Shown here one piece after another: positions 824 through 15,232 of a DNA stretch of 34,839 nt (its first letter is position 1; every line of letters starts with the position of its first letter). The translations under genes were made by a program, and so were the position numbers. The notes beneath the pieces are model-generated. The model did no database searches and was not told where the DNA came from. It was given only the letters and a program-made list of their open reading frames with translations. Origin of the DNA: Candidatus Aphodenecus pullistercoris (lineage in GTDB: Bacteria; Spirochaetota; Spirochaetia; Sphaerochaetales; Sphaerochaetaceae); contig JADIMU010000032.1 in assembly GCA_017694495.1 (NCBI GenBank), positions 1 through 34,839 of the forward strand. The letters are read 5' to 3'.

Positions 824-838
824 TTGACACTCATGCAT

Positions 839-880
839 GGGGAGATGTGGGTCGAAATGCCCCCATTTCCCCTGTTTTTT
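839..880 (+). terminator. Intrinsic terminator after trxB
   Basis: A hairpin with arms around 839-851 and 861-872 (GGGGAGATG pairing with CATTTCCCC, then GGG with CCC past a bulge) is followed by six T at 875-880. It ends trxB transcription and lies only 2 nt before the -35 box of the glgA promoter. Confidence 0.85.
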
Positions 881-882
881 GC

Positions 883-911
883 TTGACTTGTCATTTGAGA
901 CAGAGTGTAAT
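883..911 (+). promoter_or_regulatory. glgA promoter, predicted leaderless
   Basis: TTGACT at 883-888, a 17-nt spacer and TGTAAT at 906-911 form a near-consensus housekeeping promoter. The -10 hexamer ends 7 nt before the ATG at 919, so the expected transcription start coincides with the start codon. Confidence 0.75.
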
Positions 912-918
912 TTAGGAC

Positions 919-2349
919 ATGAACGTCCTGATGGTCACTTCAGAATCCGTACCCTTCTCGAAGTCGGGTGGGCTTGCCGACGTCGTCGGTGCCCTGTCCC
1001 GGGTCCTCGTGCGCCAAGGGCATACTGTGGCCATCGTCATGCCGCTCTACGGCTCTGTGGACCAGAGCACCTTCTCCAGCGCCTTGAAGGTCACCTGCAC
1101 CATGCTCGGCCACAGTGAGACGGTCGAAGTCCGGAAGGCCGTCGTGGACGGCGTCGACTATCTGGGCCTCGCCCACCCCTGGTACACGGACAGGAAGGGC
1201 ATCTACGGAGACGACTCCTTCTCTCCCTATGCCGACAACTGCCCCCGCTTCGCCCTGATGTGCAAGGCGGCGGTCGAAATCGCCAGGCAAAGGGATGTGG
1301 ACATCATCCACTGCCACGACTGGACGGCCGGACTCGTGCCCATGCTCGCCAAGGAGGCGGGCCTCAGGTGCGCATCGGTCATGACGGTCCACAACCTGGC
1401 CTACATGGGCACCTTCCCCCGCTACGACGCCCTCCTCGCCTGTCTGCATGGAAGCGGTGACATGCTCGACGGCTTCGGTCTCCAGACGAAGGTCAACTTC
1501 CTCAAGACTGGCCTGATGACGGCCGACTCGATCACGACGGTATCGCCGACCTATGCGAAGGAGATTCAGGGCGCCGAACAGGGCTGCGGCCTCGACTGGC
1601 TCCTGAAGCGGCGCGCCGACAGGCTCGAAGGCGTCATCAACGGCATAGACACCGACGAATGGGGCAGCACGAAGGACAGCTTCTTCAGCGAGCACTTCAG
1701 CGCCGACGACCTGTCTGGCAAAGCCGCCCTCAAGGAGCGCATCCAGCGCCAGTTCGGCCTTGCACCCAGGCCTGACGTCCCACTCTTCGCCATGATCAGC
1801 CGCCTTGCCGAGCAGAAGGGCTTCGGTCCCCTCCTCGACGGCCAGCCCTGCGCCCTCGAGACGGTCCTGTCGACCCTCGATTGCCAGTTCATCATCATAG
1901 GCACGGGCGACGAGCGCTACGTCTCGAAGCTGCGCGATGTAGCCAGCCGGCACGACAACATCTCGGTGAACATCATCTTCTCGCAAGCCGTCTCCCACCA
2001 GGTCGAAGGTGGAGCCGACTTCTTCCTCATGCCCAGCAAGTACGAGCCGTGCGGCCTCAACCAGATGTACTCGCTTCGCTACGGAACGCTGCCCGTCGTC
2101 CACCGCACGGGAGGCCTTGCCGACACCGTCAGGGACATGGACGGAGAGGACGGCGACGGCTTCCTCTTCGAGAACGCATACAGCGACGAGATCGTCGCCG
2201 CCGTCAGGAGGGCATGCGCCTTCTACGCCGACAAGCAAGCCCTCGACGCCGCCCGCCGCAGGGCCATGGCACAGGACTTCTCCTGGAACAAGAGCGCTTT
2301 GGAATATGCTAGAATATACGCGAACACAATAGGAGGAAAGCAAGCATGA
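919..2349 (+). CDS. glgA: Glycogen synthase (ADP-glucose)
   Basis: This GT5-family glycosyltransferase extends alpha-1,4-glucan from ADP-glucose. The protein has 476 residues, the normal family length. The N-terminal substrate loop reads KSGGLADVVGAL, where the family usually has KTGGLADV. It is followed by HCHDWTAGLVP and TVHNLAYMGTFP, by TVSPTYAKEIQ and NGIDTDEW in the domain linker, and by the C-terminal Rossmann domain with ISRLAEQKGF, a PSKYEPCGLNQMYSLRYGTLPVVHRTGGLADTV block and the usual C-terminal helix. The ATG at 919 has no real Shine-Dalgarno; a strong promoter ends 7 nt upstream. The stop overlaps the glgC start (ATGA), so the two genes are translationally coupled and together make glycogen. 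Confidence 0.96.
   Translation: MNVLMVTSESVPFSKSGGLADVVGALSRVLVRQGHTVAIVMPLYGSVDQSTFSSALKVTCTMLGHSETVEVRKAVVDGVDYLGLAHPWYTDRKGIYGDDSFSPYADNCPRFALMCKAAVEIARQRDVDIIHCHDWTAGLVPMLAKEAGLRCASVMTVHNLAYMGTFPRYDALLACLHGSGDMLDGFGLQTKVNFLKTGLMTADSITTVSPTYAKEIQGAEQGCGLDWLLKRRADRLEGVINGIDTDEWGSTKDSFFSEHFSADDLSGKAALKERIQRQFGLAPRPDVPLFAMISRLAEQKGFGPLLDGQPCALETVLSTLDCQFIIIGTGDERYVSKLRDVASRHDNISVNIIFSQAVSHQVEGGADFFLMPSKYEPCGLNQMYSLRYGTLPVVHRTGGLADTVRDMDGEDGDGFLFENAYSDEIVAAVRRACAFYADKQALDAARRRAMAQDFSWNKSALEYARIYANTIGGKQA
2307..2315 (+). promoter_or_regulatory. Possible internal extended -10 for glgC
   Basis: TGCTAGAAT lies near the 3' end of glgA, about 30 nt before the glgC start and upstream of its AGGAGG site. 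It matches the TGCTAnnnT form repeated at other starts in this window. No convincing -35 box is seen. Confidence 0.4.
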
Positions 2350-10103: not shown

Positions 10104-11132
10104 ATGAGCACATTCAAGGACGCAAACGTACTGCTCGAGGTCAAGGACCTCAAGACATACTTCAAGACCGACAACGGCATCCTCAAGGCCGTCGACGGCG
10201 TCTCCTTCACAGTGCATGAGGGAGAGACCGTCGGCCTGGTCGGAGAGTCCGGCTGCGGCAAGAGCGTGACGAACCTCTCGATCATGCGCCTCGTCCCCTC
10301 GCCTCCCGGCAAGATCGTCGGCGGCGAGGTCCTCTACCGCGGACAGGACATAATGAAGCTCAGCGAGAAGGAGCTGAGGAGCATAAGGGGCAACAAGATC
10401 TCGATGATCTTCCAGGACCCGATGACCAGCCTCAACCCCTACCTGAGGATCTCCACGCAGATGATCGAGACGATCAGGCTGCACCAGGACATGACGAAGC
10501 AGGAGGCCAGGGAGAGGGCCATCCACATGCTCAAGCTTGTGGGCATCCCCTCCGCCGAGTCGAAGGTCGACTGCTATCCCCACCAGTTCTCCGGTGGAAT
10601 GAGGCAGCGCGTCATGATCGCCATGGCGCTGAGCTGCAACGCCGACCTTCTGGTCGCCGACGAGCCCACCACGGCCCTCGACGTCACGATCCAGGCCCAG
10701 ATCCTCGAGCTGATCAAGCGCATCAGCCAGGAGCTGAAGACGGCCGTCATCCTGATCACCCATGACCTGGGCGTCGTCGCCGGCATGTGCGACAAGGTCT
10801 GCGTCATGTACGCCGGGCGCATCGTCGAGTCCGCCCTTACCGATGAGCTCTACGAGAACCCGACCCATCCCTACACCCAAGGCCTCATCGCCTCTGTTCC
10901 CAAAATGGATGGAAAGAAGGAGGAGAGGCTCTTCTCGATCGAGGGCCAGCCGCCCAACGTCATCGATCTGCCCCCCTGCTGCCCCTTCCACCCCAGGTGC
11001 CACAAGGTGTGCGACGTCTGTCAGCACGCCTATCCGCCAGTCAAGCAGGTGGGAGATGACCACTATGTCGCCTGCTGGCTCGCATGCAGCGAGGAAGAGA
11101 GGCAAGCAGCCCTCAAAGGAGGTGAGATTTGA
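10104..11132 (+). CDS. oppD: Oligopeptide ABC transporter ATPase OppD
   Basis: This cytoplasmic ATPase energises peptide import with OppF. It is 342 residues long. Walker A GESGCGKS lies at residues 47-54, the Q-loop in MIFQDPMTSLNP, the signature in FSGGMRQRVMIAMAL, Walker B in LLVADEPTTALDVT and the switch His in ITHDLGVVAGMC. The C-terminal oligopeptide-family domain is present, with the iron-sulfur-type cysteine cluster CCPFHPRC, CDVC and CW seen in OppD/DppD. AAGGAGGAG precedes the ATG. The stop overlaps the start of oppF. Confidence 0.96.
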   Translation: MSTFKDANVLLEVKDLKTYFKTDNGILKAVDGVSFTVHEGETVGLVGESGCGKSVTNLSIMRLVPSPPGKIVGGEVLYRGQDIMKLSEKELRSIRGNKISMIFQDPMTSLNPYLRISTQMIETIRLHQDMTKQEARERAIHMLKLVGIPSAESKVDCYPHQFSGGMRQRVMIAMALSCNADLLVADEPTTALDVTIQAQILELIKRISQELKTAVILITHDLGVVAGMCDKVCVMYAGRIVESALTDELYENPTHPYTQGLIASVPKMDGKKEERLFSIEGQPPNVIDLPPCCPFHPRCHKVCDVCQHAYPPVKQVGDDHYVACWLACSEEERQAALKGGEI

Positions 11133-12241
11133 GCACAGACAAGGAACTCATACTGTCCGTAAAGGACCTCAGACAGCACTTCCCCATCGACGGAGGTGGC
11201 ATCTTCAAGAAGACTGTAGGCTTTGTGCGCGCCGTCGACGGCATCAGCTTCGACGTCTACAAGGGTGAGACCGTCGGCATCGTCGGCGAGTCGGGCTGCG
11301 GAAAGAGCACGACGGTGCGATCGATCGCCCAGCTCTACAAGCCGACCACCGGAGAGATCCTTTTCCACGGCGTCGACCTGTGCAAGGCCGACAGAGAGAC
11401 CCTCCTCAAGGAGAGGAGGAACATCCAGATGATCTTCCAGGACCCCTACGCCTCACTCGATCCCAGGATGACGGTGCGCAACATCATCATGGAGCCGCTG
11501 AGGGTCTACAACAGGCGTGGCCTTCTGGACCGCAAGTACAGCGAGGATGAGCTCGACGCCCAGGTCAAGGACCTCATGGACAAGGTCGGCATCAACCGCG
11601 CCTTCGTCAACCGTTATCCGCACGAGTTCTCCGGTGGACAGAGGCAGAGGATTGGCATCGCCCGCGCCCTCGCCCTCAAGCCTGAGATCATCCTCGCCGA
11701 CGAGCCCGTATCAGCGCTGGACGTCTCGATTCAGGCCCAGATCCTGAACCTGATCAGCGACATCCAGAAGGAGATGGGAATCACCTTCATCTTCATCGCC
11801 CACGACCTTGGCGTCATACAGCACATCTCGCACCGCGTCATCGTCATGTATCTGGGCAAGATCATGGAGATCGCCTCCTCGGATGACCTCTACGCCCAGC
11901 CCATGCACCCCTACACCCAGGCCCTGCTCTCGGCGGCCCCCATTCCCGACCCCAAGGTCGAGAGGACGCGCAAGAGGATCGTCCTGGAGGGCGACGTCCC
12001 TTCCCCCGACAAGGAGAGGCACCAGTGCTACTTCTACGACAGGTGCTCCAAGAGAATGGACAAGTGCGCATGCTGCCAGCCCCCGATGTTCGACTGCGGC
12101 AACGGCCACAAGGTCGCATGCTTCCTCTACGACGACAAGCCTGTCGCCGAGCCGGCCAACGACAATCCGACTCCCGGTGAGCTCAAGCTCCGCGAGAAGG
12201 AGGAGAGGAAGGCCGCAAGAGCCAAGGCCAGCCAGAACTGA
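11129..12241 (+). CDS. oppF: Oligopeptide ABC transporter ATPase OppF
   Basis: This is the second ATPase of the peptide importer, 370 residues. Walker A GESGCGKS is at residues 53-60, followed by MIFQDPYASLDPRM, the signature FSGGQRQRIGIARAL, Walker B IILADEPVSALDVS and switch AHDLGVIQH. The C-terminal domain carries the cysteine set CYFYDRC, CACC and C. The start is TTG, overlapping the oppD stop as TTGA, with a perfect AAAGGAGGT 5 nt upstream; no nearer ATG or GTG is in frame. The last 40 residues are a charged tail rich in Lys, Glu and Ala. A hairpin terminator follows. Confidence 0.95.
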   Translation: MSTDKELILSVKDLRQHFPIDGGGIFKKTVGFVRAVDGISFDVYKGETVGIVGESGCGKSTTVRSIAQLYKPTTGEILFHGVDLCKADRETLLKERRNIQMIFQDPYASLDPRMTVRNIIMEPLRVYNRRGLLDRKYSEDELDAQVKDLMDKVGINRAFVNRYPHEFSGGQRQRIGIARALALKPEIILADEPVSALDVSIQAQILNLISDIQKEMGITFIFIAHDLGVIQHISHRVIVMYLGKIMEIASSDDLYAQPMHPYTQALLSAAPIPDPKVERTRKRIVLEGDVPSPDKERHQCYFYDRCSKRMDKCACCQPPMFDCGNGHKVACFLYDDKPVAEPANDNPTPGELKLREKEERKAARAKASQN

Positions 12242-12257
12242 GAAGACCGAATCGACT

Positions 12258-12286
12258 GCAAAGCCTCCCTGCCCGGGAGGCTTTGC
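12258..12286 (+). terminator. Bidirectional terminator between oppF and the convergent membrane gene
   Basis: A perfect 12-bp stem (GCAAAGCCTCCC with its complement) has a 5-nt loop. It lies 16 nt after the oppF stop and just beyond the stop of the opposing gene, and can serve both. Confidence 0.75.
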
Positions 12287-12291
12287 CACAT

Positions 12292-12855
12292 TCAGCGCAG
12301 CCTCGACCGCAGTCCCGTCTCCAGGACGCTCCTGTCGATGTCCAGTGCAAGGCCGGTAAGTCGGGCCAGCGTCTTGGCAAGCTCCTCTATCCTGAGGCCA
12401 TCACGCTTGGCCGTACCGATCTCGATATTGACGTAGTCGGCACCCTCGCTGTCGAAGTTGAGCCTCAGCGAGCTCATCTCCTTGTGCCTCCAGCTGGGCT
12501 TTACAGACTCCGTCCCCTCCCCGATACCCTTGTAGAAGTGGCGCACGGCGATGCAATCGATCTCATCGTAGGAGTGCACTGTACGTCTGACGAAGGGGCC
12601 GAGTCCGGTGATCGAGGAGGCGCTGCGGCTGGCCTTGTCGAAGACCCACTCGTCCCGATAGAAGGCGACAAGCAGGAAGAGGATGGCGAAGATGATGGGC
12701 ACTATGGCCGATGCCGACATGAGACCTTCGGCTATGTAGCTCGCCAGGCCCAGGGCCAGGACGATGGCGAAGGCCAGGGCGAAGATCCTCGTGACGATTG
12801 TGGTCGAATAGACGATGCGACCATCCTTCTTCCGGTGCACTCTGTATCTGAACAT
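12292..12855 (-). CDS. Membrane protein with PH-like cytoplasmic part, unknown
   Basis: The product has 187 residues with two membrane segments (about residues 22-42 and 47-66). A soluble part follows beginning YRDEWVFDKASRSASSITGLGPFVRR, with alternating hydrophobic residues as in bacterial PH-like (YdbT/YcxB type) membrane proteins. That resemblance is weak and no function is claimed. The ATG at 12855 is chosen because a -35 TTGTCT, 17 nt and a -10 TAGTAT end 7 nt before it. A longer in-frame version starting near 12984 would run back to the edge of the intron remnant and contains no convincing start. Confidence 0.7.
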   Translation of the reverse strand: MFRYRVHRKKDGRIVYSTTIVTRIFALAFAIVLALGLASYIAEGLMSASAIVPIIFAILFLLVAFYRDEWVFDKASRSASSITGLGPFVRRTVHSYDEIDCIAVRHFYKGIGEGTESVKPSWRHKEMSSLRLNFDSEGADYVNIEIGTAKRDGLRIEELAKTLARLTGLALDIDRSVLETGLRSRLR

Positions 12856-12862
12856 GTAAGGA

Positions 12863-12891
12863 ATACTAGCCCTGGCAGGGAGGAAAGACAA
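12863..12891 (-). promoter_or_regulatory. Leaderless-type promoter of the PH-like membrane protein gene
   Basis: On the minus strand TTGTCT (12891-12886), 17 nt and TAGTAT (12868-12863) are followed by 7 nt and ATG. Confidence 0.6.
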
Positions 12892-12986
12892 TCGGAATCT
12901 GGATTCTTGTCCAGCGAATGCATGCAAAACTTGGATTTTCTGGATCAGGTCAAACTGCTTCGGAACTATAGAGTTCATATTCATCT

Positions 12987-13075
12987 GAACCGCCGTATAC
13001 CGACCGGTACGTACGGTGGTGTGAGAGGAAAGCTCTCAAGGATGGAAAAAATCCCTGAGAGCCTACCTACTCGAT
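12987..13075 (+). mobile_element. Orphan group II intron 3' end (domains V and VI)
   Basis: Positions 12987-13021 read as the catalytic domain V hairpin of a bacterial group II intron, beginning GAACCGCCGTATACC and ending GTACGTACGGTGGTG. Its base stem ACCGCCGT pairs with ACGGTGGT, and its tip TACC pairs with GGTA. The linker TGAGAGG and a strong hairpin (GCTCTCA at 13032-13038 with TGAGAGC at 13056-13062, plus inner GGAT/ATCC) make domain VI. The sequence closes with CCTACCTACTCGAT, the usual 3' end. No maturase/reverse transcriptase reading frame and no 5' intron domains are present, so it is a fragment or a heavily reduced intron. Confidence 0.8.
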
Positions 13076-13103
13076 TTTTTCTGCGATGAGCTATGCAGAA
13101 AAA

Positions 13104-13134
13104 TGCATGAAGGGTGCATGAAAATCTGATTTTC
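13104..13134 (+). promoter_or_regulatory. Repeat and palindrome upstream of oppA
   Basis: TGCATGAA occurs at 13104-13111 and again at 13115-13122, an 11-bp step that puts both copies on one face of the helix. The second copy runs into the perfect palindrome GAAAATCTGATTTTC (13120-13134). This lies 15 nt before the -35 box of oppA and is a candidate regulator site. Confidence 0.45.
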
Positions 13135-13148
13135 CTTCCTCAAAGTGC

Positions 13149-13176
13149 TGGACTTTTTTTCCTCCAAAGGTATAAG
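13149..13176 (+). promoter_or_regulatory. oppA promoter
   Basis: TGGACT (13149-13154), a T-rich 16-nt spacer and TATAAG (13171-13176) lie 31 nt before the ATG. A TTGGAGG site at 13198-13204 shows that this gene, unlike several others here, has a normal leader. Confidence 0.55.
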
Positions 13177-13207
13177 GTCACACCATAAAACACCAATTGG
13201 AGGTTCT

Positions 13208-14944
13208 ATGAGAAAACTTGGATTGATCCTGCTTGCTCTGCTGGTCACCTGTTCCTTCGCCTTCGCAGGCGGAGCCAGCGAGACCCAGGCAGTCGCGGTC
13301 ACAGCGGCGCCTGTCACCACGCAGACCACCGCTACTGATACATCCGCCAGCACCACGACGGATGTCCCCGAGGAGTCCCACATCGGTATCGTCACCGGTA
13401 CGGTCTCCCAGAGCGAGGACGACCCCCTGATGAAGGCCGTCACGTTCACGATCGCCAACGGCGCAGAGCCGGAGTCCCTTGACCCGAGCCAGATCCAGGG
13501 TGTTCCCGAGCACAGGATTTTCGAGGCCCTCTTCGAGGGTCTGGTCGCAGTCGATCCCCAGACTGCGGATGGAGTTCCCGGTGTCGCAGAGAGCTGGGAT
13601 GTCAGCGATGACGGTCTGACCTACACCTTCCACCTCAGGGAGGATGCCGTCTGGTCCGATGGTGTGCCTATCACAGCAGATGACGTCGTCTACTCCTGGC
13701 TGCGCGAGCTCGCTCCCGAGACGGCATCTCCCTACGCCTGGTTCCCCGCGATGTTCATCGCCGGTGCCACCGAGTACAATGCCGGTGAGGTCGGACCTGA
13801 GGCTGTCCAGATCAGGGCGGTCGACGACCACACCTTCGAGATGACGCTGATCGGACCCCTCCCCTACGTCATCGGCGCCCTGTGCCACTACTCTTTCGGC
13901 ATCGTGCCCCAGCACGCCATCGAGAAGTACGGCCAGGCTTGGACACAGCCCGAGAACTTCGTCGGCAACGGACCCTTCGTCCTGACCGAGCATGTTCCCC
14001 AGGACAGGATCGTCTGTGAGAAGAACCCGCTCTACTGGGATGCCGAGAACGTCGCCCTCGACGAGGTCGTCTTCCTCGCTTCCGACGACACCGCCACGAA
14101 CTACAACATGTACGTCTCCGGCGAGGTCGACTGGAACACCTCAATCGATCTGAACAACTTCGACCAGATCTCCATGAGGACGGACTACCAGGTCGCTCCC
14201 CAGCTGTCCACCTACTACTACACGATCAACGTCACCGAGCCTCCCTTCGATGATCCCCTCGTCCGCAAGGCCGTCAGCTACGCCATCGACCGCGAGGAGC
14301 TCGTCTACTCCGTCACCCGCGCCGGACAGATCCCCTGCTGGGGCATCGTCCCCGAGATGGCCGGCTACGAGCCTCTTGAGGAGAGCGACATCGGCGGATC
14401 CCTCTACGATCCCGACTATGCCCGTGAGCTTCTGGCCCAGGCCGGCTACCCGAACGGTATCGGCTTCCCGACAGTCAGCATCCTCTACAACACGGATGAC
14501 GCCCACCGCCAGATCGCAGAATTCATCCAGCAGCAGCTGAAGGACAACCTGAACATCAACGTCGAGCTGGAGAACCAGGAGTGGGCCACCTACCTCGCCA
14601 ACAGGAACGCTGGAAACTTCCAGATCGCCCGCGCTGGCTGGGTCGGCGACTACCAGGATCCCAACACCTTCCTCGACATGTTCATCACCGGTGCCGGCAT
14701 GAACGGTGGAAAGTACTCCAACCCCGAGTACGATGCTCTGATCAACCAGGCCGCCAGGATGCCTGCTGGTGAGGAGAGGATGGCCACCCTCAAGGCCGCC
14801 GAGGACATCCTCATCAACCAGGACCAGGCCATCATCCCGCTCTACTTCTATGTCTCTCAGAACATGATCGACACCAACAAGTGGGGTGGCTGGTATCCCA
14901 ACACGATGGACTACCATCCGGTCAAGAACATCTACCTCAAGTAG
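13208..14944 (+). CDS. oppA: Oligopeptide-binding protein OppA
   Basis: This periplasmic binding protein of the SBP_bac_5 family delivers peptides to the OppBCDF transporter. The protein has 578 residues. The signal peptide MRKLGLILLALLVTCSFAFA is followed by GGASET, a mature end common in spirochaete binding proteins. A Thr/Ala/Val-rich linker runs to about residue 60. Core motifs include EPESLDPSQIQG, IFEALFEGLV, GVAESWDVSDDGLTYTFHLR, WSDGVPITADDVVYSW, FVGNGPFVL, VRKAVSYAIDRE and WVGDYQDPNTFLD. The ATG at 13208 has TTGGAGG 3 nt upstream; an in-frame upstream stretch from 13145 crosses the promoter and is not coding. It is separated from oppBCDF by a convergent gene and has its own promoter and terminator. 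Confidence 0.95.
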   Translation: MRKLGLILLALLVTCSFAFAGGASETQAVAVTAAPVTTQTTATDTSASTTTDVPEESHIGIVTGTVSQSEDDPLMKAVTFTIANGAEPESLDPSQIQGVPEHRIFEALFEGLVAVDPQTADGVPGVAESWDVSDDGLTYTFHLREDAVWSDGVPITADDVVYSWLRELAPETASPYAWFPAMFIAGATEYNAGEVGPEAVQIRAVDDHTFEMTLIGPLPYVIGALCHYSFGIVPQHAIEKYGQAWTQPENFVGNGPFVLTEHVPQDRIVCEKNPLYWDAENVALDEVVFLASDDTATNYNMYVSGEVDWNTSIDLNNFDQISMRTDYQVAPQLSTYYYTINVTEPPFDDPLVRKAVSYAIDREELVYSVTRAGQIPCWGIVPEMAGYEPLEESDIGGSLYDPDYARELLAQAGYPNGIGFPTVSILYNTDDAHRQIAEFIQQQLKDNLNINVELENQEWATYLANRNAGNFQIARAGWVGDYQDPNTFLDMFITGAGMNGGKYSNPEYDALINQAARMPAGEERMATLKAAEDILINQDQAIIPLYFYVSQNMIDTNKWGGWYPNTMDYHPVKNIYLK

Positions 14945-15095: not shown

Positions 15096-15172
15096 GTCTC
15101 CTGTCCGGGGTGGCGTAAAGCCTGAGATCATACCCGAAACCTGATCTGGACAATACCAGCGTAGGGAGACTG
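15096..15172 (+). ncRNA. TPP riboswitch (THI element)
   Basis: The conserved aptamer core is plain: CGGGGTGGC, GCCTGAGATCATACCC, then ACCTGATCTGGACAATACC and AGCGTAGGGA. These are the pyrimidine-sensing (CTGAGA) and pyrophosphate-sensing (CCTGATCTGGATAATGCCAGCGTAGGGA-type) helices of the thiamine pyrophosphate riboswitch. The closing stem can form between 15096-15101 and 15165-15170. Downstream, AGCCC at 15195-15199 can pair with GGGCT at 15220-15224, covering the thiB ribosome site GGAGGG. CTGG at 15170-15173 could compete for part of the AGCCC strand. This suggests control of translation start, with TPP turning the operon off; no intrinsic terminator is seen in the platform. Confidence 0.93.
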
Positions 15173-15232
15173 GATGGAAACTCATACTTGTACCAGCCCA
15201 TGGATACATTCTATCTGGAGGGCTTCAGAAAT

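Follow-up and report, generated by a model that had tools for sequence, protein, structure and literature searches.

A group IIC-like intron remnant at the edge of a probable promoter and signal-peptide swap upstream of oppA in Candidatus Aphodenecus pullistercoris

Introduction

Bacterial group II introns that carry a CGC catalytic triad in domain V constitute group IIC (class C); they insert after the hairpins of intrinsic terminators and encode an RT/maturase of the TIGR04416 type. The literature records the triad in some introns, gives insertion at terminators as a group IIC habit and describes truncated copies as the majority state of bacterial group II introns (PMC4424553). In another study the truncated copies described are those that have lost their 3' end (PMC4496777), whereas the fragment considered in this work is a surviving 3' end. 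A second kind of system to which the locus can be compared is the deletion-born gene fusion, in which pieces of two genes are joined in frame and a promoter is captured (PMC12803068).

Here we describe a locus in a stretch of 34,839 nucleotides of contig JADIMU010000032.1 (hereafter the window) that shares features with each of these systems. Its intron family resembles group IIC in the triad, the insertion habit and the maturase, but at the window locus only the last 105 nt survive; as in other truncated group II introns, a decayed piece of a retroelement adjoins other mobile DNA; and, as in deletion-born fusions, two genes have contributed pieces to one reading frame together with a captured promoter, although in the relatives examined these genes are not adjacent to each other, and at the window locus the edge bears scars of mobile elements. 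The arrangement is very probably that of a group IIC-like intron reduced to 105 nt of its 3' end and carried in as debris with the promoter and signal-peptide block of a DUF3798 binding-protein gene. The intron remnant as such is of an ordinary, known kind; the fusion is more interesting, and this kind of promoter and signal-peptide swap is not shown by routine annotation.

The intron remnant and its relatives

The Rfam model of group II domains V and VI (RF00029) matches the forward strand at 12988-13075 over its entire length (model positions 1-77 of 77), with 45.2 bits against a curated gathering score of 40 (E 6.4e-06). When the window was compared with the full intron by BLASTN, positions 12971-13075 aligned to the 3' end of a copy on contig C52 of the same genome with 95.3% identity over 106 columns (E 1.7e-42). 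The sequence-only reading, which had placed the 3' end of a group II intron upstream of oppA and proposed a covariance-model search, is thus borne out. Both domains are on the forward strand: domain V lies at 12989-13020, as placed by the Rfam alignment, the fold and identity with C52, with the C-G-C triad at 12991-12993, and domain VI with the intron 3' end (...CTACTCGAT) lies at 13022-13075, as placed by the model and the fold. The 89 nt of the fragment fold to -42.0 kcal/mol, compared with -20.0 +/- 3.1 kcal/mol for 200 dinucleotide shuffles (z -7.1). The fragment and the C52 copy differ by four substitutions and one indel, none of them inside domain V, which is identical in the two; the full pairing of this domain, previously taken as a hint of conservation or recent arrival, is therefore explained by closeness to a live intron copy in the same genome.

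Immediately upstream, and overlapping the model match by one base, positions 12971-12988 of the forward strand (GAG TTC ATA TTC ATC TGA) hold the final five codons of the maturase ORF with its stop, reading EFIFI-stop where the intact C52 maturase has EFVFI-stop; base 12971 is assignable either to this ORF or to the mobile element on its left. Nothing else of an RT or maturase is found at the locus, and positions 11000-13400 of the window, compared with ten full-length or near-full intron copies, matched only their 3' end. The earlier reading, which saw neither domains I-III nor any part of the maturase, therefore holds for the domains and extends to domain IV, but needs a small correction for the maturase. 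The fragment is a remnant, not an intron; having lost domains I-IV and the maturase, it can no longer splice or move. No direct- or inverted-repeat signature surrounds it in 12800-13220. The possibility that the fragment acts as a terminator was rejected, a scan of 12200-13300 having returned no terminator-like site.

A search of the window's own genome (G000; 2.07 Mb in 70 contigs) for introns with the same 3' end, also proposed by that reading, found one further RF00029 match, the C52 copy, directly 3' of an intact 452-aa maturase ORF that scores 416.6 bits against TIGR04416 (cut-off 300); the 5' end of this copy runs off the contig. The donor family of the fragment is present in this genome with an intact maturase. 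Related introns occur across the genus and family, and nearly all copies with a readable end terminate in CTACTCGAT, with different flanks beyond, the exceptions being interrupted, degenerate or contig-cut copies (e.g., L027, L028, L075 and L076). In an alignment of 14 copies, with the window left out, both-sided changes are seen at 10 of the 28 pairs of domain V and the domain VI stem. Eight loci include the intron start together with 60 nt of 5' flank; immediately 5' of the intron, seven of them have a stable hairpin (-16.7 to -25.8 kcal/mol) and the eighth a weak one (-7.5 kcal/mol). Insertion after terminator hairpins is a property of the family, the fragment's own 5' side being gone. Because of the CGC triad and this insertion habit the family would fit a group IIC-like class, an assignment made by these features and not by RT phylogeny.

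A covariance model of the 3' end gave 86 matches in 44 of the 138 genomes of the family. We examined 75 of them; the remaining 11 begin no more than about 330 nt from the end of a contig. Of the 75 examined, 58 have 300 nt or more of DNA on their 5' side, and an RT match, in several cases only a partial one, was present upstream in 52 of these 58. The six without an RT match are the window, G013:C13, G056:C12, G032:C92, G001:C6 and G010:C12: the second and third are bare 3' ends directly after terminator hairpins with T-rich tails, G032:C92 is a bare end that may keep a short maturase tail, an insertion interrupts domain V of the G001:C6 copy, and G010:C12 retains domains I-III. Thus, 3' remnants recur in the family, yet they form a minority.

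The 5' region of oppA

The left neighbour of the block is p187 (12295-12855, reverse strand), a gene for an uncharacterised 187-aa protein without Pfam or NCBIfam match, which is transcribed in the opposite direction to oppA and whose orthologues adjoin oppA in seven relatives. It is followed by the truncated end of a multi-copy mobile element (12926-12971, forward strand), whose last base is exactly where the intron similarity starts. Positions 12926-12969 match, with 95% identity, one end of a G009 repeat that is present there in four copies with different DNA beyond a common ...CCATGG. All four copies are cut at contig ends, and no transposase was found for the element. Own genome G000 holds no second copy of this end; among the 138 genomes, one weak match was obtained in G012 and none in the remaining genomes besides the window and G009.

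On the other side of the fragment, positions 13092-13424 (forward strand) appear to be an imported block with the promoter, ribosome-binding region, signal peptide and linker of a DUF3798 binding-protein gene. This DNA is 75% identical to G014:C15 over 334 columns and likewise to G007:C7, and has shorter or weaker matches in G009, G012, G013 and G015. The product of the G007 gene is a 426-aa DUF3798 protein (424 bits), and the G009 gene was read as a similar 426-aa protein; the reading frames were read in these two relatives, the other four being matched by the 5' region. The oppA gene (13208-14944, forward strand) encodes a protein of 578 aa, identified by BLASTP/tblastn and an SBP_bac_5 match, that is a fusion: residues 1-72 are 68% identical to the G007 DUF3798 protein, residues from about 73 to 80 come from further inside a DUF3798-type gene, with 13418-13442 matching the interior of the G009 gene (92% over 25 nt, E 6e-4), and the remainder is native OppA. 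It is as if the stretch between two GACGACC-like sequences had been lost from the DUF3798 gene. Native oppA homology resumes at 13451; correspondingly, in seven of seven relatives' oppA genes similarity to the window OppA begins only at residue 76-78, and these genes have no match to 13092-13424. Elsewhere in G000 there is no match to the DUF3798 protein or to the 5' DNA of its gene, and the 7 kb around the G007 DUF3798 gene otherwise gave only short hits in G000, five at 65-77% and one of 32 bases at 91%. The promoter, the signal peptide and residues 1-72 of OppA thus appear to be derived from an unrelated DUF3798 gene.

Eleven relatives in the genus carry p187, and the retrieved flanks include oppA in seven of them. 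DNA like 12862-13091, which contains the fragment, is absent from the p187 loci of all 11, including those seven. The order p187, oppA, thiBPQ is kept in all six of the relative regions examined, with oppBCDF preceding in five and not found beside p187 in G009. A rearrangement breakpoint between p187 and oppA had been suspected from DNA matches to the oppA start on other contigs in relatives and was rejected, given this conserved order and the finding that the off-contig matches are DUF3798 genes. A TPP riboswitch (61 bits) is found at 15096-15184, just 5' of thiBPQ.

The probable oppA promoter (TGGACT and TATAAG, 16 nt apart; 13149-13176, forward strand) lies 3' of the intron fragment and was not reported by a generic sigma-70 scan. 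Six relatives have an equivalent of this promoter in front of their DUF3798 gene, so oppA transcription most likely starts downstream of the fragment, which is probably not transcribed with oppA and would be a passenger. A TGCAT-N6-TGCAT-like motif near 13103 also occurs upstream of the relatives' oppA, and the pattern has no match in the six DUF3798 regions; being short and loose, it was set aside. Most probably, the fragment is debris bordering a swap of promoter and signal peptide. Debris was one of two roles that the sequence-only reading had offered for it, and the downstream position of the best oppA promoter and the absence of the fragment at the relatives' locus support that choice. 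That reading did not include the five codons of the maturase, the end of a mobile element to the left of the fragment, or the promoter and signal peptide of foreign origin to its right.

Origin of the arrangement

The fragment, which has a truncated element end directly to its left and foreign DNA to its right, may have reached its position in four steps. An intron copy would have inserted after the terminator hairpin that precedes a DUF3798 binding-protein gene; a second mobile element would have landed in or beside the intron; the piece comprising the element end, the intron 3' end and the DUF3798 promoter and signal peptide would have come to abut oppA; and deletions would have fused the beginning of the DUF3798 gene in frame with native oppA, the remaining DUF3798 gene being lost. 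At 13076, right after the intron 3' end, the window aligns, loosely by several bases, to the point where the terminator hairpin preceding DUF3798 in G007 and G014 ends, and this alignment suggests that the intron originally inserted at the DUF3798 terminator and then travelled with the DUF3798 promoter. No genome holds an intermediate stage, either an intron upstream of DUF3798 or DUF3798 beside oppA.

Direct retrotransposition with 5' truncation, in which an early stop of reverse transcription left only the last 105 nt, is an unlikely competitor. The bare ends of G013:C13 and G056:C12, directly after T-tailed terminator hairpins, are what it would be expected to produce; here, however, the left neighbour is a mobile-element end and not a terminator hairpin, and the fold of 12862-12971 contains no terminator-like stem. 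We give considerably less credit to an assembly chimera, in which the intron and its flanking repeats joined unrelated contigs. The junctions are those of the 70-contig draft assembly, and repeats do break it, since the C52 copy stops inside the intron at a contig end; against a chimera, the fragment is not identical to that copy (four substitutions and one indel), the reading frame runs through the fusion joint and keeps a 578-aa ORF, and gene order on both sides matches that of relatives. Retention of the fragment as a functional RNA of the oppA leader, through structure, mRNA stability or a trans-acting domain V, which was the other role offered for it, has a strong fold and an intact domain V in its favour but is highly improbable, given that the intact pairing is already accounted for by similarity to the live copy, that the conserved promoter at 13149-13176 lies 3' of the fragment, and that the fragment is missing at all 11 relatives' p187 loci, the seven with p187 beside oppA among them, and so is no conserved oppA leader at orthologous loci.

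Under the preferred reading of transported debris, the remnant is useful as a marker, flagging the edge of a block that gave a nutrient-uptake gene the promoter and export signal of an unrelated binding protein. Since introns of this family settle between the terminator of one gene and the promoter of the next, their copies might act as shared joints that move promoters and signal peptides between genes, with OppA a product of such shuffling at intron edges; we regard this as a long shot. If terminator-loving introns do aid such swaps, an excess of intron ends at the borders of fusions and promoter swaps would be a testable consequence.

Other introns and retroelements in the family

Some further loci were observed in the course of this analysis. 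L068, L069, L071, L074, L079 and L141 form a sub-lineage with several paired changes in the domain V helix relative to the type of the window. In G001:C6 (56467-59971; L027 and L235) an insertion of about 3.4 kb apparently splits an intron within its domain V. The G010:C12 copy (L036, approximately 825-1576, reverse strand) is a short intron with domains I-III like those of the window's intron family, a canonical but different domain V (65 bits) and no RT match; it is possibly an ORF-less chimera. On another contig of G000 (G000:C67, 519-2298; L004), an RT gene matching RVT_1 falls below the group II cut-off and is preceded by a gene whose product has a weak match to Avd (21.4 bits; cut-off 80), and this locus is possibly a diversity-generating retroelement.
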